Source of the DNA: Natronoarchaeum philippinense
Lineage (GTDB): Archaea > Halobacteriota > Halobacteria > Halobacteriales > Natronoarchaeaceae
Direction of reading: 5' to 3'
Length of the DNA stretch: 64,000 nt
Assembly: GCF_900215575.1 (NCBI RefSeq)
Contig: NZ_OBEJ01000002.1
Span: 620,001-684,000 of the forward strand
A program made the position numbers and the translations under genes. Positions 2,018 through 24,635 of this stretch are shown here, in pieces. Below the pieces are notes generated by a model. That model saw only the letters and a program-made list of their open reading frames with translations, ran no database searches and was not told the DNA's origin. The first letter of the stretch is position 1; every line of letters begins with the position of its first letter.

Positions 2018-2054
2018 GTAGCGCGAACCGGCCGTCCCCGCCCGCTCCCGCGAA

Positions 2055-2063
2055 CTTTTATCG
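2055..2063 (+). promoter_or_regulatory. TATA-like box A before the cinA-like gene
   Basis: The sequence cttttatcg sits about 26 bases before the ATG at 2085, in a short GC-rich spacer. It indicates a separate transcript start after the tfe group. Confidence 0.55.
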
Positions 2064-2084
2064 CCCGGCGCGCAACGGGCCAGT

Positions 2085-2789
2085 ATGCACGTCGCGGTCA
2101 TCAACGTCGGCGACGAGATTCTGGCCGGCGACACGACGAACACGAACGCCACGTGGCTGTGCGACCGCCTCGACGAGCGCGGCGTCGACGTCGAGCGAGT
2201 GGCGGTCGTTCCCGATCGGATCGCCGATATCGCCCGGCTGGTCAACGAGTATCGCGCCGAGTACGACGCGGTGATCGTCACCGGCGGGCTGGGGCCGACC
2301 CACGACGACGTGACGATGGACGGCGTCGCCGCGGCGTTCGGGCGCGAGGTCGAGCGCAACCCCGATGCCGTCGAGTGGCTCGTCGAGCACGGCGGCTACG
2401 AGCGCGACGATCTAGTCGAGGGGACGAGTCACCTGCCGGCCGGTGCTCGCGTGCTCCACAACGACGTGGGCGTCGCGCCCGGCTGCGTCGTCGACGACGA
2501 GGTGTACGTCCTGCCCGGCGTTCCCCCGGAGATGAAGGGGATGTTCGAGCAGGTGGCCGAGGAGTTCGCCGGCGAGCGGACCCACACCGTCGTCGTCACT
2601 GTCGACGAGCCGGAGAGCGCACTGCTGGACCGACTTGGTGATCTCCGCGAGCGCTTCGACGTGGGCGTCGGTAGCTACCCCGGCGAGTACGTCCGCGTGA
2701 AGCTCAAAGACGCCGACTCGGAGGCCGTCGAGGCCGCGGCCGAGTGGCTCAGCGAGCGGGTCGACGTGGTCGAGACAGAGGAGCGCTAG
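2085..2789 (+). CDS. CinA-type molybdopterin-binding-fold protein
   Basis: This is a 234-residue stand-alone MoCF_biosynth (MoaB/Mog-like) domain of the CinA N-terminal type. The family motif GGLGPTHDD lies at residues 67-75, and the N-terminus has the typical GDEILAGDT. The C-terminal nicotinamide-nucleotide amidase domain of bacterial CinA is absent, as is usual in archaea. Some relatives hydrolyse ADP-ribose or handle NMN-related pyridine nucleotides, so the nearby NAD kinase gene is suggestive. The substrate in this organism cannot be read from sequence. It is often labelled competence/damage-inducible protein A, but there is no evidence here for competence. Confidence 0.85.
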   Translation: MHVAVINVGDEILAGDTTNTNATWLCDRLDERGVDVERVAVVPDRIADIARLVNEYRAEYDAVIVTGGLGPTHDDVTMDGVAAAFGREVERNPDAVEWLVEHGGYERDDLVEGTSHLPAGARVLHNDVGVAPGCVVDDEVYVLPGVPPEMKGMFEQVAEEFAGERTHTVVVTVDEPESALLDRLGDLRERFDVGVGSYPGEYVRVKLKDADSEAVEAAAEWLSERVDVVETEER

Positions 2790-2814
2790 AGGCTGCGCAT
2801 TCGTCGTTGGCGCG

Positions 2815-2925
2815 CTATCGGAACAGGTAGAACAGCCACGCCGCGGTGATCAGCAGGCTCGTTCCCAGAACGGCGAGGCTCGTCTCCCACATCGGCAGTT
2901 CCGCAGCCAGCGGTGCAAGGGTCAT
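2815..2925 (-). CDS. 36-residue single-span membrane protein
   Basis: This short reading frame encodes an N-terminal methionine, a 12-residue lead and one strongly hydrophobic segment (about residues 16-35) ending in YLFR. It lies between the convergent cinA-like gene and the divergent NAD kinase. Codon third positions are GC-rich, and an AT-rich stretch (tctcataaagtttgag, about 2947-2962) lies roughly 25-35 bases upstream on the minus strand, as a box A should. Tiny single-helix proteins in this position are often annotated in haloarchaea. The function is unknown, and it could be missed or spurious in automated calls. Confidence 0.55.
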   Translation of the reverse strand: MTLAPLAAELPMWETSLAVLGTSLLITAAWLFYLFR

Positions 2926-3061
2926 ACCCGCGTGTTGCCGTCCCGTTCTCATAAAGTTTGAGAACCCTTCCCGTCGTTCGCACGGCGAGCACCCGCTCGC
3001 TGGCCGCGAACCGTTCCCGGCGAGCGGCGGCCTTTTCTCCCCGGTCGTCCAAGCGACACGC

Positions 3062-4213
3062 ATGCGTCGGATCGGCGTCGTCGTGAACCCCGTCGCCGGG
3101 ATGGGCGGTCGCGTCGGACTCAAGGGAACTGACGGGAAGGTCGAACAGGCCGTCGAACGGGGCGCGACGCCGCGAGCGCCCGATCGCGCGACCGAAGCCA
3201 TAGAGTCGCTGGCGCGCCACGCCGAGGCCGATATCGAGGTGCTCGCAGCCGGCGGGGCGATGGGCGCGGATGCGATCCGGGCTACGGGGGTGGAGCCGAC
3301 GATCGTCTACGAACCAGCCGCGGACGCCGCCGAGCCGGGCACGGTCGAACCGGGCGCGACGACGGCCGAGGACACGCGGGCGGCCGTGAGAGCCTTCGTC
3401 GAGCACGGCGTCGACCTCGTCGTGTTCGTCGGCGGCGACGGCACCGCGGTCGACGTTGCCACGGCGCTCGACGAACTGGGCGTCGAGACGCCGATGCTCG
3501 GCGTCCCCGCGGGCGTCAAGGTGTACTCGTCGGTGTTCGGCGTGACGCCGCGGGACGCCGGCCGCATCGCGGCGACGTTCGAGCGCGTCGAAGACCGAGA
3601 GATCAACGACATCGACGAGGACGCCTACCGCGGCGGCGAGGTCGAAACCGAACTCCGAGCCGTCCGACCCGTGCCGGTCGCCGAGGATCTTCAGTCGAGC
3701 AAGCAGATCGGCGGCGGCAGCGTCGAGACGCTCGCGGAAGGGTTCATTCGGGACATCGAGCCGGGGACGACCTACGTGCTCGGCCCCGGAAGCACCGTCG
3801 GGGAGATCAAGTCCCGTCTCGGTTTCGAGGGCTCGCCGCTGGGCGTCGATGTCTGGCGAGCCGCCCCCGACGGCGTCGAGGCGACAAGCTACCACGAGCC
3901 GGCGTCGCCGGCCGGCGAGGTGCTCGTTCGAGACGCCACCGAGGCAGACATCCTCGACGTTCTGGACGACCCCGCCGTCATCGTCGTCTCGCCAATCGGC
4001 GGGCAGGGGTTCGTGTTCGGCCGTGGGAACGATCAGATCTCGCCGGCCGTGATCGAACGCTGCGATCTCGAAGTCGTCGCCTCGCGCCGGAAACTCGACG
4101 ACCTGTCGGTGCTCCGGGTCGATACCGACGACGATGACCTCGACGAGTCGCTCCGGGGCTGGCTGCAGGTTCGGATCGGTCGCTTCGAGCGCCGGATGAT
4201 GCAGGTCGTCTAA
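3062..4213 (+). CDS. ATP-NAD kinase family protein (COG3199 type)
   Basis: This protein is predicted to phosphorylate NAD to NADP or to act on a related substrate. The 383-residue sequence starts with a nucleotide-binding strand and glycine loop (VVNPVAGMGG) and carries the diagnostic GGDG at residues 124-127 inside VVFVGGDGTAVD. Its length is greater than compact NAD kinases and matches the COG3199/AcoX-like branch. The in-frame upstream region is noncoding in character, and the ATG at 3062 directly precedes the first conserved strand, so it was taken as the start. It lies 136 bases from the small divergent membrane protein gene. Confidence 0.88.
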   Translation: MRRIGVVVNPVAGMGGRVGLKGTDGKVEQAVERGATPRAPDRATEAIESLARHAEADIEVLAAGGAMGADAIRATGVEPTIVYEPAADAAEPGTVEPGATTAEDTRAAVRAFVEHGVDLVVFVGGDGTAVDVATALDELGVETPMLGVPAGVKVYSSVFGVTPRDAGRIAATFERVEDREINDIDEDAYRGGEVETELRAVRPVPVAEDLQSSKQIGGGSVETLAEGFIRDIEPGTTYVLGPGSTVGEIKSRLGFEGSPLGVDVWRAAPDGVEATSYHEPASPAGEVLVRDATEADILDVLDDPAVIVVSPIGGQGFVFGRGNDQISPAVIERCDLEVVASRRKLDDLSVLRVDTDDDDLDESLRGWLQVRIGRFERRMMQVV

Positions 4214-4319
4214 GAATAACCTTATATATCGCACTACTGTCCAGCCAGCATATTATTACTCTATCCGAGATAATGCAGATATAGACAAGATTAAGGTCTG
4301 CTCCGGCGTACTGGCGACC
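4214..4319 (+). promoter_or_regulatory. AT-rich promoter region of the phoU-like gene
   Basis: This spacer is much more AT-rich than its surroundings. A strong TATA-like run (cttatatatcg, about 4221-4231) lies far upstream, and a second box (agattaagg, 4288-4296) lies about 28 bases before the ATG at 4320. Two alternative start sites, or one promoter plus an operator, would fit. The downstream product has a DNA-binding domain, so autoregulation here is possible but not shown. Confidence 0.5.
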
Positions 4320-5351
4320 ATGGAAACGCGAAAGGTCCAGCGGCTGGGACCGTCCACGCTTGCGATGACGCTGCCCGCCGAATGGGCGAGCGAACAGGGC
4401 GTCGAAAAAGGCGACGAGGTGTCGCTCCGGATGGGCGGCAAAGGCACGCTGACGGTGATGCCCGAGTCGGCCAGCACCGAGGAGTCGGAAGCCATTATCC
4501 GCGCCGACAATCTCGACGCCAACGCCGTCGAGCGCGCGATCGTCGCCCAGTACGTGCTCGGCCGCCGCGTCATCCGCATCGACCAGACCGAGGGCGCGCT
4601 CTCCTCGGATCACATCAACGCCGTCTACAAGGCCGAAACCCAACTGATGGGCCTCGGCGTCATCGAGGAGACGCCCGAGAGCATCGCCATCCGCTGTTCG
4701 GTCGACCCCGAGGACTTCACGCTCGACAATCTCATCGAGCGCCTCGAATCGACCGGCTCGACGATGCGCGGCGAGGCGATCAAGGCGCTGGCCCACGGCA
4801 ACCCGGATCTCGCCCAGCGCGCGCTCAACCGCGAGCGCCAGGCGAACAAGATCTTCGTCCTCATGCTGCGGCTGATCTTCACGGCCTACCAGAACCCCAA
4901 CCTCGCCCGCGCCGTCGGGCTGGAATCAGGCTTCCCGCTGATCGGCTACCGCTCGATCGCCAAGAACCTCGAACTCACCGCGGACAACGCCGAGGACATC
5001 GCCGAGATCGTGCTCGACGCCGAAAATCACTCGCTAAACGTCGATCAGGGGACGATGCGTCGCATCCGCGAGTTCACTGACGACGTGGACGAGTTGACCC
5101 AACTCGCCGTCGAAGCCGCCGTCGAGCGCGACTACGACAAGACCATCGAGGTCCGCCAGGGGTTCCACGAGATCGGCGACCTCGAACAGGAGATCCTCGG
5201 CGACCTGCCCGAGATGGACAACGAGGACCTGCTGCAGGTCCGCGAGGTTCTCGTCAGCCTCAAACAGACCGCCGAGTACGCCGTCCGAAACGCCGAAATC
5301 GCCGCGAATCTCGCGCTCAACGAGGAGTCCGAGCACACGACCATTAACTGA
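4320..5351 (+). CDS. AbrB/SpoVT-PhoU phosphate regulator
   Basis: The 343-residue protein fuses an N-terminal SpoVT/AbrB swapped-hairpin DNA-binding domain (about residues 1-47, starting METRKVQRLGPSTL) to two PhoU-type helical repeats (about 110-330). In haloarchaea such proteins are linked to control of phosphate uptake: PhoU senses the state of the Pst transporter and the AbrB domain may bind DNA. No pst genes are present nearby, so the target is inferred from family. The gene stands alone, and its stop is followed immediately by a recurring intergenic element. Confidence 0.9.
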   Translation: METRKVQRLGPSTLAMTLPAEWASEQGVEKGDEVSLRMGGKGTLTVMPESASTEESEAIIRADNLDANAVERAIVAQYVLGRRVIRIDQTEGALSSDHINAVYKAETQLMGLGVIEETPESIAIRCSVDPEDFTLDNLIERLESTGSTMRGEAIKALAHGNPDLAQRALNRERQANKIFVLMLRLIFTAYQNPNLARAVGLESGFPLIGYRSIAKNLELTADNAEDIAEIVLDAENHSLNVDQGTMRRIREFTDDVDELTQLAVEAAVERDYDKTIEVRQGFHEIGDLEQEILGDLPEMDNEDLLQVREVLVSLKQTAEYAVRNAEIAANLALNEESEHTTIN

Positions 5352-5430
5352 CCACCTTTTTCCGCCTCGGGTGCGCTCGCTCACTCCGTTCACTCGCGCA
5401 CCACTCGGCGCAAAAACGTGGGCGAAAAAA
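5352..5430 (-). repeat. Recurring intergenic hairpin element, copy A
   Basis: Read on the minus strand this stretch runs TTTTTCGCCCACGTTTTTGCG, then a variable inverted-repeat core, then CACCCGAGGCGGAAAAAGGTGG. The same flanks occur at about 23998-24070 and 46167-46257 on the plus strand. It begins two bases after the stop codon of the PhoU-like gene. Another palindromic run of ctcgctcact/gagcgaacg type follows to about 5470. The element is noncoding; an apparent reading frame across it is also conserved between copies only because the DNA is conserved. Confidence 0.65.
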
Positions 5431-5549
5431 GCCGCTCGCTCACTCGCTACGCTCGTTCGCTCGCGGTTGCTACACTGGATACTACAACACTGCGACAACC
5501 CCGCTACGCAGCAGTACGCAACCGTACCGGATGCCGCGGCGCGACGCCG

Positions 5550-6059
5550 TCAGTCGGCCGGCAGTTCCGCTCGCCGGTCGTCGGCGTCCTCCGGCGATTC
5601 CTCGGCGGCGTCTAGGTCGGTCTTTGCTGCGCGCAGTGGCTTGCGCGAGGCCATCTCGCAGTCGAACGCCGGGTGTTCGACAACGTGGCGGACGATCATG
5701 TGCCGGCGCGAGCCGGTGATGCCCGTTCGGCCCACGTCGTCGGCGGCGAACTCGCCGGGCAGTCGCTCGTACAGACGGCGAAGTTCTTCGAACGATCGGA
5801 ACACCTTGGCGTTGCCCGCCGAGTCGGCACAGCGGCGGCTGACCTCGTAGGAGCCGTCTTCGCGGTACTCGCCGGCCGTCCGGAAGAACTCACGACGTTC
5901 GGTCAGCGCGTCGCCGATGGCGTCTTGCAGATCGGCAGCGGCGTCGCGCGAGAGGACACGTTGGTCGTCACCGATCGTGATTTCGATACTGGTGCGGTCG
6001 TCGGTCGCCGTCGCAGCGATCTCATCGCCCGCCGAGAACGCGATCAGGAGCGATGTCAC
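5550..6059 (-). CDS. Conserved haloarchaeal protein of unknown function
   Basis: This is a 169-residue acidic protein with a GTG start. It contains an N-terminal beta-like region (residues 1-35, IEITIGDDQRVLS), a central helical segment and a basic HMIVRHVVEHPAF motif near residues 119-131, followed by a charged, probably disordered tail. I do not recognise a characterised domain. Codon usage is that of a normal haloarchaeal gene. It lies tail-to-tail with the PhoU-like gene and is co-directional with the LEA14-like gene 66 bases upstream, so it could be the second gene of that transcript. Confidence 0.7.
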   Translation of the reverse strand: MTSLLIAFSAGDEIAATATDDRTSIEITIGDDQRVLSRDAAADLQDAIGDALTERREFFRTAGEYREDGSYEVSRRCADSAGNAKVFRSFEELRRLYERLPGEFAADDVGRTGITGSRRHMIVRHVVEHPAFDCEMASRKPLRAAKTDLDAAEESPEDADDRRAELPAD

Positions 6060-18548: not shown

Positions 18549-19850
18549 ATGAACGTCGAGATTTCACCATCGCAGGTTCGCGGCGCTGCGGCGGCGCCGC
18601 CGTCGAAGAGCTACACTCACCGGGCGGTGCTGGCGGCCGGCTACGCCGACGGCGCGACGGTTCGGGATCCCCTGACGAGCGCGGACATCCGGGCGACGAT
18701 GCGCGCCGTCGAGGCCTTCGGCGGATCGGTCGCGGAGGAAGCGGACGGCTCGCTGGAGATCGAGGGCTTCGACGGCCGCCCCGACGTGCCCGCCGACGTG
18801 ATCGACTGCGCCAACAGCGGGACGACGATGCGGCTGGTCACCGCGGCGGCGGCGCTGGCCGACGGCGGCACCGTGCTGACCGGCGACGAGTCGCTGCGCT
18901 CGCGCCCACAGGGCCCGCTGCTCGACGCCATCGAACAGCTGGGCGGGAGCGCCCGCTCGACGCGCGGGAACGGGCAGGCGCCGCTGGTGATCGACGGCCC
19001 CATCGCGGGCGGCACGGCGTCGATCCCCGGCGACGTGTCCTCGCAGTTCATCTCCGCGCTGCTCTTTGCCGGTGCGGCCACCGACGAGGGCGTCGAGGTC
19101 GATCTGGAGACCGAACTCAAATCGGCGCCGTACGTCGACATCACGATCGAGTTGCTGTCGGCCTTCGGCGTCGACGCGCGCCGGACCGACGCCGGCTTCG
19201 CGGTCGACGGCGGGCAGTCCTACGCCCCCGAGGGAGGGGAGTACGCAGTTCCCGGCGACTTCTCGTCGATGTCCTATCTCCTCGCTGCGGGCGCCGTGGC
19301 GGCCGAGGACGGCGGGGCGGTCGACGTGCGCGGCGCCCAGCCCAGCGCGCAGGGCGACAGCGCGATCGTCGGCGTGCTGGAGGACATGGGCGCCGCGATC
19401 GACTGGGATCGGGACGCGGGCGTCATTTCGGTCGAGCGCTCGGACCTCTCGGGAACGACCGTCGACGTGGGCGACACGCCCGACCTGCTCCCGACGATCG
19501 CCGCGCTCGGTGCGATCGCCGACGGCGACACCCGGATCGAGAACTGCGAACACGTCCGATACAAGGAGACCGACCGGGTCAGCGCGATGGCCGAGGAACT
19601 GGGCAAGATGGGCGCCAGCGTGACCGAGGAACGCGACGTGCTGACGATCCACGGCGACGAGACGGAGCTTTCGGGCGCGACCGTCGAGGGGCGCAAGGAC
19701 CACCGGATCGTCATGTCGCTGGCGGTCGCCGGATTGGTTGCGGATGGCCCGACGACGATTCGGGGCGGCGAGCACGTCGACGTGTCGTTCCCGAACTTCT
19801 TCGAGACGATCGAGGAGTTGGGCGTGGACGTGGTGCGAGACGGTTCGTAG
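18549..19850 (+). CDS. aroA: 3-phosphoshikimate 1-carboxyvinyltransferase (EPSP synthase)
   Basis: AroA joins shikimate 3-phosphate and PEP to give EPSP, the sixth step of the shikimate pathway. The 433-residue protein shows the N-terminal [10 protein letters not shown] substrate loop, [15 protein letters not shown], and a C-terminal RYKETDR motif followed by [10 protein letters not shown]. The length is standard for the family. The start ATG at 18549 was preferred because it precedes the first beta strand directly. AroC, the next enzyme, is encoded at 26134, with the low-GC defence cassette between them. That separation suggests that the island was inserted next to aroA. Confidence 0.95.
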
Positions 19851-19889
19851 CCACTCTTCTCACCAAGGCTGCTGAGTCTGTCAGCGGAT

Positions 19890-19903
19890 ATTTACAATTT
19901 AAG
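19890..19903 (+). promoter_or_regulatory. Promoter of the EVE-McrB cassette
   Basis: The sequence atttacaatttaag is centred about 35 bases before the ATG at 19934, in an AT-rich spacer that begins just after aroA. It is the only promoter-like site for the two-gene cassette. Confidence 0.5.
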
Positions 19904-19933
19904 TGATTGGCGGACAGTCGTTCGATAGTTCAT

Positions 19934-22204
19934 ATGCCCAACCGGGATTTGTTTCTCGCACCCTGTGCAAGCGATCGGCCTCAGGAACACTTTCGGCGGA
20001 CGGTCCGTGATGGAGTAACTGCAGATATCTATCGGGAGCACACGGCGCATGACTACGGTGATTCCATTGGGGTCTGGGGGCTCGTTCCAAATCTAGAAAG
20101 CACGTGGAAAAAGCTCTCCGCGGGCGATTATGTCGTCTTCTACTGGGGGGACAAACAGTACAAATACGCCGCCGAAGTCGTCGCTACTGAACATAATCCT
20201 GATCTGGCAAAAGAACTCTGGCCAGCCTACGCTGATGAATCTGCCGGAGAAGACGATCCTGCTGATCCTTGGGAATGCATCGTCTATCTTGACGAGCCAC
20301 GAGAGATCGACATAGATAGCCGAGAGCTTCAGGGCGAGTTGCTCGGTGAAGGAAAGCACTTCACGATGCGTTTTCGTCCCGTCAACGACGAGGGGCTTCG
20401 AACAATCCGGAACAAGTTCGGGAGCGTGAAGGAGTACATCGAGGAGCACACGGTGACGACGTTCGATGATTACGTAGAAGATACGTCAAACACTGAATCA
20501 CCTTCGACCAATGGTGCCAGTGCTCCCGAGCGTCCGGAACCAGATCATCCGCTATTTGATCACCTCAATTCCTCAAGCGAAAGAAGCATCTTCAAAATCA
20601 CTGCACCCCCGGACTTTTGGCTCACCGTCATTGAGCACTGTGGGATCCCGCTTGGGGGAGACTACGGGGAAATGAGTGAAATCAGCAATGGAGACATTCT
20701 CCTGTTTCACTCGACTCAGACACCGATGGACGATCAACTCTCTGAGCGCGATAGCAAACTCTTCGGGGTCGTTATCGCTGGCAGACGTGCTCCGAAAGAG
20801 AGACCGTGGACTTGGGAAGAGCGGCGGTCTGATTCCGATACTCAATTCTCCGCTTTCATCTCGTTCACTCGACTCTTTCTCACAGGAACTCCGGAGAGAA
20901 TCAACGTCAATACACCTATTGAGGACCGTTCTGCAAAGACCAGAGAAGCAGAATTGGACGGGCTACTACGCAACGGCCTCTCCTCGGAGCAGATTGACGA
21001 TATTTGCGACGAATTCGAGGTTGGCTTTCCATATCAAGACGCATTAGTCGAATTGAATTCGGGAGAGCAGTTCGGTCGCGGCCAAGCACTGCTTTCTCAG
21101 CTAGCACCGGAACTCACAGAGCATTCGTCAATCCCCTTTACTGCTGATTTCGAAGGAGAGGTGCAAGCATCTGTGTTTGATGGGCTCCATTTCCATGACG
21201 GCGAAACTCAAGGGGTTTCTTCTGCCTCTGAGTTAGCCATGGACATCACTGCTGCGCTTAGATCTGGAAAACATATTGTGTTTACTGGCCCGCCGGGGAC
21301 CGGGAAAACTGAAATCGCTAGCCGAGTGAGCGACTATCTAGTCGAGAATCACCCAAATCTCTACACTGATCGAGAGATTACAACAGCAACAGCGGACTGG
21401 TCGACGTTCGATACGATCGGCGGTTACATGCCAGAAGCAGAGAATGATACTTCAGACAGTCTGGAGTTTTCGCCCGGGTTGATTCTGAATCGGTTTAAAA
21501 GTCGGAGAACAGGACAGCAATTGAACGAGCCGGTTATCATAGATGAACTCAATCGTTCGGACATTGACAAGGCGTTCGGTCAGCTATTCACGCTATTATC
21601 TGGCCAGTCTGTAACTCTTCCATACACAAAAAATAGTCAGGAGATAGAACTGTTAGCCGCAGCGGAGAGCGCAGAATTGCCCGCAGAACATCAGTATGTA
21701 GTTCCTCAATCGTGGCGGATTTTTGCGACTATGAACACGTACGACAAGACATCTCTCTACGAGATGAGCTACGCGTTCATGCGGCGCTTCGCGTTTATCC
21801 GCATACCAGCACCAGCGCTTCCGGATGGGACTTCACGGGAAGAGGAAGAAAGGCTTGAACAGATTGTTTTCGATTTCGCCGATGTCTGGGCCCTATCTCC
21901 GGAACGGGAAGAGGCAATGTCAGTCGGTCGAGTCTGGAGAGAAGCGAATCACGCCGTTGATGACCGGGCAATCGGCCCTGCAATTGTGGAAGATATGTTG
22001 CGGTACATTAGCCAACACCCCGGGAATGATCTCGGATATATCCTCACGCAAGCAGTGGTGAGTTATCTTCTTCCACAGTTAGAGGGCGTTCCAAAGCGAA
22101 AGAAAATTGTTCGGAATATTGCAGGAGTCCAGAGAATCAATGAGCAACAACTTGCGGAGGCAGCCGGGGACATACTTCAGGTAACCATTGCGTCAGATGA
22201 ATAG
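19934..22204 (+). CDS. EVE-domain McrB-like AAA+ NTPase
   Basis: The 756-residue protein has an N-terminal EVE/PUA-like module (about 5-170; the features GDYVVFYWGDKQ and MRFRPV are typical), a second region with a similar pattern (about 215-320; NGDILLFHS, FTRLFLTG), and a C-terminal AAA+ domain of the McrB type. The latter has Walker A GPPGTGKT (452-459), Walker B VIIDELNR (533-540), the family motif TMNTYDKTSL (about 599-608) and arginines in AFMRRFAF. EVE domains in other systems bind modified bases, so this subunit may recognise modified DNA and power translocation or loading of the nuclease encoded next. GC is clearly lower than in aroA. The start is the ATG after a TTG-started extension. 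Confidence 0.85.
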   Translation: MPNRDLFLAPCASDRPQEHFRRTVRDGVTADIYREHTAHDYGDSIGVWGLVPNLESTWKKLSAGDYVVFYWGDKQYKYAAEVVATEHNPDLAKELWPAYADESAGEDDPADPWECIVYLDEPREIDIDSRELQGELLGEGKHFTMRFRPVNDEGLRTIRNKFGSVKEYIEEHTVTTFDDYVEDTSNTESPSTNGASAPERPEPDHPLFDHLNSSSERSIFKITAPPDFWLTVIEHCGIPLGGDYGEMSEISNGDILLFHSTQTPMDDQLSERDSKLFGVVIAGRRAPKERPWTWEERRSDSDTQFSAFISFTRLFLTGTPERINVNTPIEDRSAKTREAELDGLLRNGLSSEQIDDICDEFEVGFPYQDALVELNSGEQFGRGQALLSQLAPELTEHSSIPFTADFEGEVQASVFDGLHFHDGETQGVSSASELAMDITAALRSGKHIVFTGPPGTGKTEIASRVSDYLVENHPNLYTDREITTATADWSTFDTIGGYMPEAENDTSDSLEFSPGLILNRFKSRRTGQQLNEPVIIDELNRSDIDKAFGQLFTLLSGQSVTLPYTKNSQEIELLAAAESAELPAEHQYVVPQSWRIFATMNTYDKTSLYEMSYAFMRRFAFIRIPAPALPDGTSREEEERLEQIVFDFADVWALSPEREEAMSVGRVWREANHAVDDRAIGPAIVEDMLRYISQHPGNDLGYILTQAVVSYLLPQLEGVPKRKKIVRNIAGVQRINEQQLAEAAGDILQVTIASDE

Positions 22205-23549
22205 GAAGCAACTGCTCGACCAATTGACGGAAGACGTACTGGCGTACGCCATGCAGGGGGCGTTCCCGGAGCGCGAACTAGCTCGATCAATCAAGCCAGA
22301 TCAACTCGATGAGAGATTTGAAGAATATGAGCTGCTCTTGGATCTCCATTTTATTCTTAAGCCTGAAATCGTCGACTTTGTTAGAGAACTTCCAGCGCGC
22401 CTTCGAAGTATACGAACAGAAACCGAGACGGTTTCTCGAACACGGCGTGGCGCAGTTGATGGCCAAATAAACTGGGAGGCGACACTAAAAAAGCGGCACT
22501 CAGAACACCCGCGAGACGCGTCGATATTTGTTTGTGACAACCGATCCGAAGATTACGATATCGACGAAAATGTTGTCCTAAAGAAGCTCATCTCAGTGGT
22601 TTATACGACACTACAGGAAGCAGAAGAGTACCTTCGAGGGGAGTATGATTGGGTTCGAGAGACGTGGAAAGGCAATGAAAATCTGATCGACGAGTTGCAG
22701 CGAATCGTCGAACGCAACGTACACGTACGACGTATTCGCTCCCCGGACGCGTACGAGCCCACTGAACGGATGCTGACTTCTGCCGCAAATTCTCGACAAG
22801 AGGTTTATCGCAGAGCGGCATCGTTACTTCGTAATAGAGAGCGTTTACTGGACGGGAATGCCGATGCGATCCGCGACCTGCTCGACAAAACTGCGATTAC
22901 TCCGGACGACGAGAATACGTTGTTCGAGTTATTTGTCCTCTTCCGTTTCGTTTCGACACTTGAGGAGATGCAGGATGAGCAAGCAACCTTCAAAACTATC
23001 AGTACAGGTCGGCAGGAGATCGCTCGTCTAGACGGGGATCGAGAAATCGTCCTGTATCACGATAATTCTGCTCAAGATCGTGATCTGTCTTTCAGAGCAG
23101 TTCCAGACGACAAAGATTCCCTCTCACGCACTGAGGAAGTGCAGATAGTCGCACAGGAGGTTGCAGGCAACTACTTCAAACGCGACTTTCGGAATCACAC
23201 TGGACGACCTGACGTTATCGTTCTCGAGGTGATTTCAGAGGAGCAAAACGAACATGAATATCTTGTTGTCGAGACAAAGAACAGTACCAACACAGACACG
23301 ATACGACAAGGCATCAAAGAGACACTGGAGTATTTAGCATTTCTCCGCGTCAACGATGAGTTCGTTTTCGGCCAAGAGAATCCTGAAGAGGAGAACTATT
23401 TCGGCACGGGACGTAACGGATTACTGGTTGTTCAGGATGTCAATGGCGATACTGCTTCGCTGACAGAGCAATCCGACGAGGAGATCAATATTCTACAGGC
23501 ATCTGAACTAGAATCTGAACTAGAGCAAATATTGCAGCATATGATCTGA
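22197..23549 (+). CDS. McrC-like PD-(D/E)XK nuclease subunit
   Basis: The 450-residue protein has a long N-terminal helical region (1-240) and a C-terminal PD-(D/E)XK nuclease core: D339 in GRPDVIVLEV, E359 and K361 in LVVETKNS, followed by the helix IRQGIKETLEYL. The motifs GAVDGQINWEATL (about 85-97) and ENTLFELFVL (239-248) resemble those of McrC and DUF2357-type partners of McrB NTPases. It overlaps the NTPase gene by eight bases, so both are made together. Predicted role: it cleaves DNA when the EVE-McrB subunit detects modified or foreign DNA. It has the same low GC as its partner. Exact family assignment is by motif only. Confidence 0.78.
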   Translation: MNRKQLLDQLTEDVLAYAMQGAFPERELARSIKPDQLDERFEEYELLLDLHFILKPEIVDFVRELPARLRSIRTETETVSRTRRGAVDGQINWEATLKKRHSEHPRDASIFVCDNRSEDYDIDENVVLKKLISVVYTTLQEAEEYLRGEYDWVRETWKGNENLIDELQRIVERNVHVRRIRSPDAYEPTERMLTSAANSRQEVYRRAASLLRNRERLLDGNADAIRDLLDKTAITPDDENTLFELFVLFRFVSTLEEMQDEQATFKTISTGRQEIARLDGDREIVLYHDNSAQDRDLSFRAVPDDKDSLSRTEEVQIVAQEVAGNYFKRDFRNHTGRPDVIVLEVISEEQNEHEYLVVETKNSTNTDTIRQGIKETLEYLAFLRVNDEFVFGQENPEEENYFGTGRNGLLVVQDVNGDTASLTEQSDEEINILQASELESELEQILQHMI

Positions 23550-23945
23550 AATTCGTCCCGTATAGTCTTCCTCAAAACAGACCAGTGGGGCTACACCGAG
23601 ACCGACCCCCTGCCGGCGTTGCGGATCACCGACCTCTCCGAGACCGAGGCGGACCTGATCGAGGCCTTCGTCCCCGTGGCGGTCGACGAGGCCGGCGGGT
23701 TCGCGGGCTTCCGCGAGACCGCCACGAAGACGAACTCGCTGGTCGATCGCCTGCGCAAGCTGACGCTGCCCGCCGTGGGGGATGTCGAGGCCGGGCTGGA
23801 GAGCTACGTCCAGACCACGGAACGTGCCGAGGAACTGGAAGCGAAGATCGAGAAGACTGACGAGCTGATCGACGAGATCGTGTACGAGCTGTACGGGCTG
23901 ACCGACGATGAAATCGAGATCGTCGAGGAGGCAGTCGGGGAGTAG
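23550..23945 (+). pseudogene. 3' remnant of a type IIG/Eco57I-like restriction-methylase gene
   Basis: The frame is open from the codon after the nuclease stop and reads about 131 residues with no start codon near its beginning. The sequence includes FLKTDQWGYTETDP, a helical linker (LVDRLRKLTLPAV), a coiled coil, and the C-terminal DEIVYELYGLTDDEIEIVE, the classic tail of type IIG and BREX-type adenine methylase-nuclease proteins. The methylase and nuclease domains are missing. GC is back to the high chromosomal level. A TTG at 23619 could start a 108-residue fragment but a functional protein is unlikely. It marks where an older R-M gene was cut by replacement. Confidence 0.7.
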
Positions 23946-24107: not shown

Positions 24108-24356
24108 ATGAGCACTGGCGTCGAGCCGACGATCACGCTCACTGACGAGGGCGAGTGGTGGGTCGCCAGAGACACCGAAACGGGCGTCACGTCGCAGGGG
24201 AAGACCCGCTCGGAAGCGCTCGACAACCTCGACGAAGCGCTTGCCGGCTACCACGGCGACGGGCGCGAGCCGACCGACGAGGAACTGCGCGCTGCCGGGA
24301 TCGATCCGGAGAACAACGAGTCAGAATCGACCGACGACTCCGAAATTTTCAACTGA
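24108..24356 (+). CDS. HicB family antitoxin
   Basis: The 82-residue protein has the partial RNase H fold of HicB (about 5-50, including EGEWWVARDTETGVTSQGKTRSEALDNLDEAL) split here as motif WWVARDTETGV and GKTRSEALDNL. A charged tail follows. It lacks an obvious DNA-binding ribbon-helix-helix. It is predicted to inhibit the HicA toxin encoded 27 bases downstream. The antitoxin-first order is the reverse of the classical hicAB. The start ATG follows a box A at 24075-24084. Confidence 0.82.
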   Translation: MSTGVEPTITLTDEGEWWVARDTETGVTSQGKTRSEALDNLDEALAGYHGDGREPTDEELRAAGIDPENNESESTDDSEIFN

Positions 24357-24383: not shown

Positions 24384-24635
24384 ATGGGGCGGCCGTTCTC
24401 CGGCATGGAGGTGGTGAAGGTGATGGTCAACAGCGGTATCTACGAGTGGGATCGGACGAACGGCGACCACGCGATCCTCCGCTGGGAGCCGCCGTCCGAC
24501 CACGATTCCGACGCGCGTACTGTCCCGGTCCCCCTGCACGACGAGCTGAGTGTCGGGACGCTTCGAGATATCGCCGATCAAGCCGGAGCGAACGACTTCG
24601 GAGAGTTCCGCGACTGGATCGATCGGAACCGGTAG
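24384..24635 (+). CDS. HicA family toxin
   Basis: The 83-residue protein has the dsRBD-like HicA fold: MEVVKVMVNSGIYE, then the catalytic-type GDHAILRWE with the histidine used for mRNA cleavage, then a TVPVPLHDELSVGTLRDIADQAG motif read here as VPVPLHDELS and GTLRDIADQAG. HicA toxins are ribosome-independent mRNA interferases. It is paired with the HicB gene upstream. The shorter start at M8 (MEVVK) is also possible. Confidence 0.82.
   Translation: MGRPFSGMEVVKVMVNSGIYEWDRTNGDHAILRWEPPSDHDSDARTVPVPLHDELSVGTLRDIADQAGANDFGEFRDWIDRNR

Follow-up and report, generated by a model that had tools for sequence, protein, structure and literature searches.

A divergent McrBC-like gene pair with YTH- and EVE-like sensor domains beside aroA in Natronoarchaeum philippinense, a probable type IV restriction system

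A stretch of 64,000 nucleotides from the haloarchaeon Natronoarchaeum philippinense (contig NZ_OBEJ01000002.1, positions 620,001 to 684,000; hereafter the window) carries a cassette of two overlapping genes next to aroA, an mcrB-like gene and a gene for a putative nuclease. Does this pair restrict modified DNA, and which mark would it read? An initial annotation had considered it a plausible type IV-like defence system. This view is supported by an McrB-type motor, a predicted McrC fold in the partner, a conserved operon, sensors resembling readers of modified bases, a patchy distribution and defence-rich neighbourhoods. It is highly probable that the pair is a divergent McrBC, i.e. a modification-dependent (type IV) restriction enzyme, and most likely it represents an overlooked branch of this known kind. 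In such an enzyme, the McrB-like protein would form a nucleotide-driven ring, presumably fuelled by GTP, and the YTH-like and EVE-like domains would bind incoming DNA where a base is modified, N6-methyladenine (m6A) being the likeliest mark. A helical and beta-hairpin finger of the McrC-like protein would enter the ring and stimulate the motor, and its PD-(D/E)xK domain would cut the DNA, which may protect the cell from viruses.

The motor and its nuclease partner

Both open reading frames are intact, with ATG 19934 and ATG 22197 as the best starts, and they share an 8-bp overlap (ATGAATAG), which confirms the overlapping gene pair of the initial annotation. The mcrB-like gene is single-copy in the 3.16-Mb assembly. 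The cassette comprises the following features:

19934..22204, + strand: mcrB-like gene, 756 amino acids (aa), two PUA-like sensors and McrB-type AAA+ motor
19937..20461, + strand: sensor D1, residues 2-176, YTH-like
20549..20923, + strand: sensor D2, residues 206-330, weakly EVE/YTH-like
21149..22201, + strand: McrB-type AAA+ motor, residues 406-756
21287..21313, + strand: Walker A, GPPGTGKTE, residues 452-460
21533..21547, + strand: Walker B, VIIDE, residues 534-538
21731..21745, + strand: McrB signature MNTYD (NxxD: N601, D604), residues 600-604
22197..23549, + strand: mcrC-like gene, 450 aa
22197..22976, + strand: finger-like part of the mcrC-like gene, with helices, a long beta-hairpin (75-84/110-119) with tip helix and a helical bundle in the predicted model
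23127..23546, + strand: PD-(D/E)xK nuclease part, residues 311-450
23211..23279, + strand: catalytic motif D339 ... E359-x-K361, invariant in 39 aligned sequences

The motor is of the McrB type. Pfam AAA_5 spans residues 447-619, and the nearest solved relatives by sequence are the McrB proteins of Escherichia coli and Thermococcus gammatolerans. A motor profile of 31 rows scored 73.8 bits with McrB in the PDB, and the next AAA family reached 33. When the AlphaFold model (mean predicted local distance difference test (pLDDT) score of 85) was searched with Foldseek, the top three chains were McrB, and further AAA+ proteins came next with comparable E-values; these AAA+ matches filled the list, so that relatives of the sensors were not displayed. 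The Walker A, Walker B and MNT motifs are intact, as had been annotated, and the key residues of Walker A, Walker B, the NxxD motif and the arginine pair at 617-618 are invariant in the relatives. N601 and D604 belong to this invariant set, and the segment reads MNTYDKTS here, compared to the MNxxDRS that McrB homologues bear where other AAA+ proteins have the sensor I motif (PMC7680126).

The partner is harder to place. As a single sequence, it had no significant match in Pfam, PADLOC, NCBIfam, PHROGs or the PDB, and the family profile matched no PDB sequence. The catalytic residues proposed by the initial annotation are strongly conserved, because P338, D339, E359, K361, G372, E375 and Y379 show no variation across 39 aligned sequences, whose members are 29-75% identical to the window protein. 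Invariance of an active site down to 29% identity is far beyond chance. The predicted model (mean pLDDT 74) was compared to 350,542 PDB chains by Foldseek, and hits 1-4 were McrC chains (E 4.6e-5 to 5.4e-3, probability 0.95-1.00), with no other match below E 0.1. The model predicts helices, a hairpin with a tip helix, a helical bundle, a small beta-hairpin linker (274-288) and a C-terminal nuclease domain, an order that agrees with the description of McrC (PMC7680126). Thus, the predicted fold suggests an McrC-like partner with finger and PD-(D/E)xK domain.

The sensor domains and the likely target

The N-terminus of the McrB-like protein had been labelled as an EVE domain, and this label needs correction. 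There are two PUA-like sensors, of which D2 is weakly EVE-like, but D1 is nearer to YTH, and Pfam EVE (PF01878) has no match in the protein. The best PDB match of the D1 profile was the N-terminal domain of T. gammatolerans McrB (6P0F, E=1.1e-6), and the UPF0310/EVE protein MJECL36 was distant (E=1). This homology makes D1 a candidate modified-base sensor. Its model is confident and has a beta-alpha-beta-alpha-beta pattern. W48 is invariant in the D1 alignment and profile-aligned with a tryptophan of the T. gammatolerans protein; we take its position to resemble that of the first of the aromatic-cage tryptophans in YTH domains. The D2 profile matched the UPF0310 (EVE) protein PH1033 (E=0.028) and the T. 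gammatolerans McrB N-terminal domain (E=0.042). In profile comparisons, D1 and D2 matched each other at 92%, D1 reached only 71% with EVE, and D2 against true EVE gave 5.4% by hhalign.

The N-terminal domain of T. gammatolerans McrB has a YTH fold that targets m6A DNA (PMC7680126, PMC12707154). Since the leading sensor of the window protein is YTH-like, the target is more likely to be m6A than a modified cytosine. Judged from sequence, the target would most likely be m6A DNA in a particular sequence context. Context dependence is probable because the host genome itself contains two matches to N6-methyltransferases and because the Natrialbales retain an m6A orphan methyltransferase as a group (PMC10609329).

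Several observations weigh against the assignment to McrBC and m6A. No sequence-level link between the nuclease and McrC was found: PF10117, the Pfam model of McrC, has no match in the window genome, although recognition by this model is an annotation criterion and not a functional one, and hhalign gave a non-significant 2.9% for the nuclease family against canonical haloarchaeal McrC. Moreover, the structural superpositions with McrC have low template-modelling (TM) scores of 0.20-0.29. Because the TM-scores are low and the sequence comparison is non-significant, the McrC assignment depends on the fold together with the active site, the gene order and the partner. The m6A prediction is based on one domain match, and the two N6-methyltransferase matches of the host imply that the targets can include only some of the m6A sites.

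The comparison with known systems helps to place the pair. T. gammatolerans McrBC (6P0F, 6UT5) shares the YTH-like first sensor, the McrB AAA+ motor with NxxD and a PD-(D/E)xK nuclease; however, the window McrB adds a second, EVE-like sensor, and its nuclease lacks the N-terminal scaffold barrel of the T. gammatolerans McrC and is not recognisable by sequence. With E. coli K-12 McrBC, the pair has in common the two-gene operon, the motor, and a finger and nuclease without an N-terminal scaffold, and E. coli McrC (6HZ4_M) is the top Foldseek match of the window nuclease. By contrast, the E. coli sensor is DUF3578/MrcB_N for modified cytosine, where the window protein has YTH/EVE-like domains, and the window nuclease lies outside PF10117. 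EVE-McrB fusions likewise join a PUA-superfamily sensor to McrB, and a haloarchaeal sister branch of ~30% identity has a bona fide PF01878, which the window protein does not match. According to Bell et al. (2020), such fusions occur in nearly 300 genera and are the commonest EVE defence architecture; the main text, where it was searched, names no haloarchaea (PMC7641849). A further likeness lies in Archaeoglobus profundus pleomorphic provirus 1 (gp03/gp02), in which a D1-like sensor (27.7% identity over D1) and McrB-type AAA+ are followed by a PD-(D/E)XK gene; its nuclease has no match to the window family profile and leans to canonical McrC.

It could be argued that an McrB-McrC-like complex of this kind reads a sequence or RNA and not a modified DNA base, the PUA-like domains having another ligand. 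There are precedents: LlaJI runs McrB-like motors on unmodified DNA (PMC7680126, PMC12707154), CoCoNuTs, which consist of McrB/McrC homologues and in some types have EVE-like domains, are predicted to target RNA, and EVE, YTH and PUA domains are described as RNA binders as well (PMC7641849). Moreover, on a plasmid of Priestia megaterium, a clear relative of the nuclease (~140 bits with the family profile) follows an AAA gene; its neighbours are two further nucleases and a cytosine methyltransferase, an arrangement like that of a restriction-modification (R-M) cluster. However, no methyltransferase adjoins the window pair, the nearest match of D1 is a YTH domain for m6A in DNA, and relatives carry, in addition, MrcB_N and SRA-like domains, both readers of DNA modifications. 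The window pair has two genes only, and Pfam and the models show none of the coiled coils, additional nucleases or helicases of CoCoNuTs; according to the CoCoNuT census, these systems are nearly absent from archaea (PMC11090510). Neither a B3 nor an RE_LlaJI domain was detected by Pfam, and the neighbours are aroA, an R-M tail and HicBA-like genes. A reader of sequence or RNA is thus improbable.

Two observations on viruses touch the sensors. The viral family PHROG 14240 (function not assigned, 315 positions) matches residues 5-162 of the McrB-like protein (19946-20419) at 7e-24. Viral proteins with a D1-type sensor therefore exist, and they could be decoys or virus-borne parts of restriction systems. 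Furthermore, the A. profundus provirus is pleolipovirus-like and itself bears the type IV-like pair (L154:4495-7610).

Distribution across haloarchaea and exchange of sensors

The nuclease family is present in 134 of 394 haloarchaeal species, compared to 113 for canonical McrC (PF10117). It falls into a close group (~50-75% identity) and a distant group (~30%), whose presences are independent of each other (p=1.0). RefSeq labels the relatives as 'AAA ATPase' and 'hypothetical protein'. Fifty-nine loci, including the window, had enough upstream DNA to assess the gene order: an AAA gene lies directly upstream of the nuclease at all but one, which is a pseudogene, and the same 8-bp overlap recurs at most examined loci. 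Hence, the two-gene neighbourhood is conserved, and mcrB and mcrC are adjacent and coupled.

The sensors vary. The N-terminal parts of the McrB proteins range from almost nothing to >1,100 residues, and the sensor sets comprise D1 alone, D2 alone, D1 with D2 (as in the window) and an SRA-like domain with D1 and D2, the SRA-like label being our reading of a motif that no Pfam model matched. In some relatives, D1, D2 or both are joined to MrcB_N (PF12102, down to 2.1e-42), and the distant group has genuine EVE domains, one or two of them (PF01878, down to 6e-18). The nuclease tree, with 55 sequences, requires 17 changes among 11 sensor architectures; motor and nuclease stay constant while the sensors change. 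For instance, two Natronococcus strains have nucleases that are 98.4% identical and rearranged McrB N-termini: the domain order differs between L036:3503-8005 and L038:557-4474, and extra EVE-like segments start the latter. This pair is a case of very recent sensor shuffling. On a Halorussus plasmid (L149:5766-10353), a DUF3578 (MrcB_N) protein has a gene of its own, which precedes the AAA gene; this is possibly a split-sensor version.

A nucleoprotein machine for repair or replication would be another use of such proteins, given that PD-(D/E)xK nucleases and AAA+ motors also cooperate in repair. However, the cassette is absent from sister species in both genera in which its site was compared (see below), occurs in only a third of the species, is often plasmid-borne and has decayed copies. 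A role outside defence is therefore very improbable. The nuclease family is carried by 25 plasmid records, and plasmid copies of the cassette lie close to genes for Piwi, DUF262, HEPN, Fic and DNA adenine methylases and to DUF499/methyltransferase/phosphatase sets. In plasmids of two genera (L150:10376-17848 and L153:10391-17799), a DNA adenine methylase comes after the cassette together with a DNA methyltransferase/phosphatase/DUF499 set on the other strand, possibly a recurrent combined defence block; a DNA adenine methylase also lies near the cassette in L107. Four genomes of one genus (G131, G133, G265 and G367; g55) contain several fragmented or decayed extra nuclease matches each. Among the genomes sampled in the phylum, G468 is the sole one outside the haloarchaeal order with the nuclease, and no relative was found in IMG/VR with the family profile.

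The low-GC island of the initial annotation is real, as the cassette has 50.3% GC compared to 66.0% for the window. Recent transfer was considered as its cause. This idea is weakened because AT-richness is partly a habit of the family: GC is below that of the flanks at 43 of 58 loci (median 0.57 versus 0.61). The 16-point gap in the window is nevertheless large.

What is known comprises the YTH-McrB of Thermococcus and the EVE-McrB fusion in general. No literature report was found of the nuclease family, its haloarchaeal scale, the stacking and swapping of sensors or the exchange of R-M for McrBC at aroA; the nuclease branch may be listed unnamed in the CoCoNuT census (PMC11090510). The suggestion that the system is little described in haloarchaea holds, as libraries leave the nuclease unnamed and RefSeq calls it hypothetical; the general EVE-McrB fusion is well known (PMC7641849). 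A survey of archaeal R-M systems counted <0.2 type IV systems per genome and suspected under-counting (PMC10609329), and an earlier survey of Halobacteria treats only Mrr as type IV (PMC6471742). If the type IV assignment is true, a large barrier against modified plasmids and viruses has been overlooked in haloarchaea, and it may be a cause of their poor transformation. Moreover, the constant core with interchangeable sensors provides a natural series in which sensor domains could be assigned to DNA marks.

The slot behind aroA

The neighbours are those named by the initial annotation, with aroA upstream and a 3' fragment of an R-M gene followed by HicBA-like genes downstream:

19841..23574, no strand: segment in place of a type IIG R-M gene body, 3.73 kb here versus ~3.8 kb in the sister species G244
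23575..23945, + strand: 3' remnant (~123 codons) of a type IIG (Eco57I-like) R-M gene
24108-24356 and 24384-24635, + strand: HicB-like and HicA-like toxin-antitoxin pair, identified by eye only

Sister species in two genera (G244 and G142) have an intact type IIG gene after aroA, encoding 1367 and 1441 aa, respectively; the protein of G244 contains Eco57I, N6_Mtase and TaqI_C domains. The window remnant corresponds to the last 123 codons of this gene, with protein identities of 91% (L099) and 86% (L100). By blastn against L099, collinearity ends at window position 19840 and resumes at 23575. Since the remnant is the 3' end of the sister-species gene, the cassette replaced the body of the R-M gene. 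In G033, which belongs to the genus of G142, the cassette likewise occupies the aroA slot. The two genomes are collinear, with 87-92% nucleotide identity, as far as the region of the R-M start codon (L101 2165); collinearity returns at L101 5914 and extends through the R-M tail, and the 3.75 kb in the middle are exchanged. This clean exchange of the gene body (L101 2166-5913 versus L100, reverse complement, 2019-5770) leaves the promoter region and the tail.

The cassettes of the window and of G033 are sisters on the nuclease tree (100/96), while both genera also include a species whose slot holds the R-M gene intact. This implies either two replacements or the swapping of alleles via shared flanks. 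The slot may tentatively be viewed as an allelic switch between an m6A writer, the type IIG R-M system, and an m6A reader-cutter, the YTH-McrBC; we hold this for possible, though rather unlikely. The aroA flank and the retained R-M tail would let populations exchange writer for reader, and incompatibility of the two would make them alternatives and not companions. The slot makes such a conflict directly testable.

The exchange also bears on a self-acting or abortive system, in which the pair would answer methylation of the host genome, as by a newly acquired methyltransferase, by killing the cell or excluding the methyltransferase. E. coli McrBC can kill upon genome methylation, according to one report (PMC2614495), and the cassette occupies the gene body of an adenine-methylating type IIG system in two genera. 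Moreover, strong type IIG R-M matches are rarer in genomes with the close nuclease group (17/80 versus 114/314, Fisher p=0.011), a weak depletion in a test that ignores phylogeny and differing site specificities. However, 17 genomes hold both, and DNA adenine methylases adjoin the cassette on some plasmids. An abortive function is therefore doubtful, and it might be an additional function of this McrBC-type enzyme.

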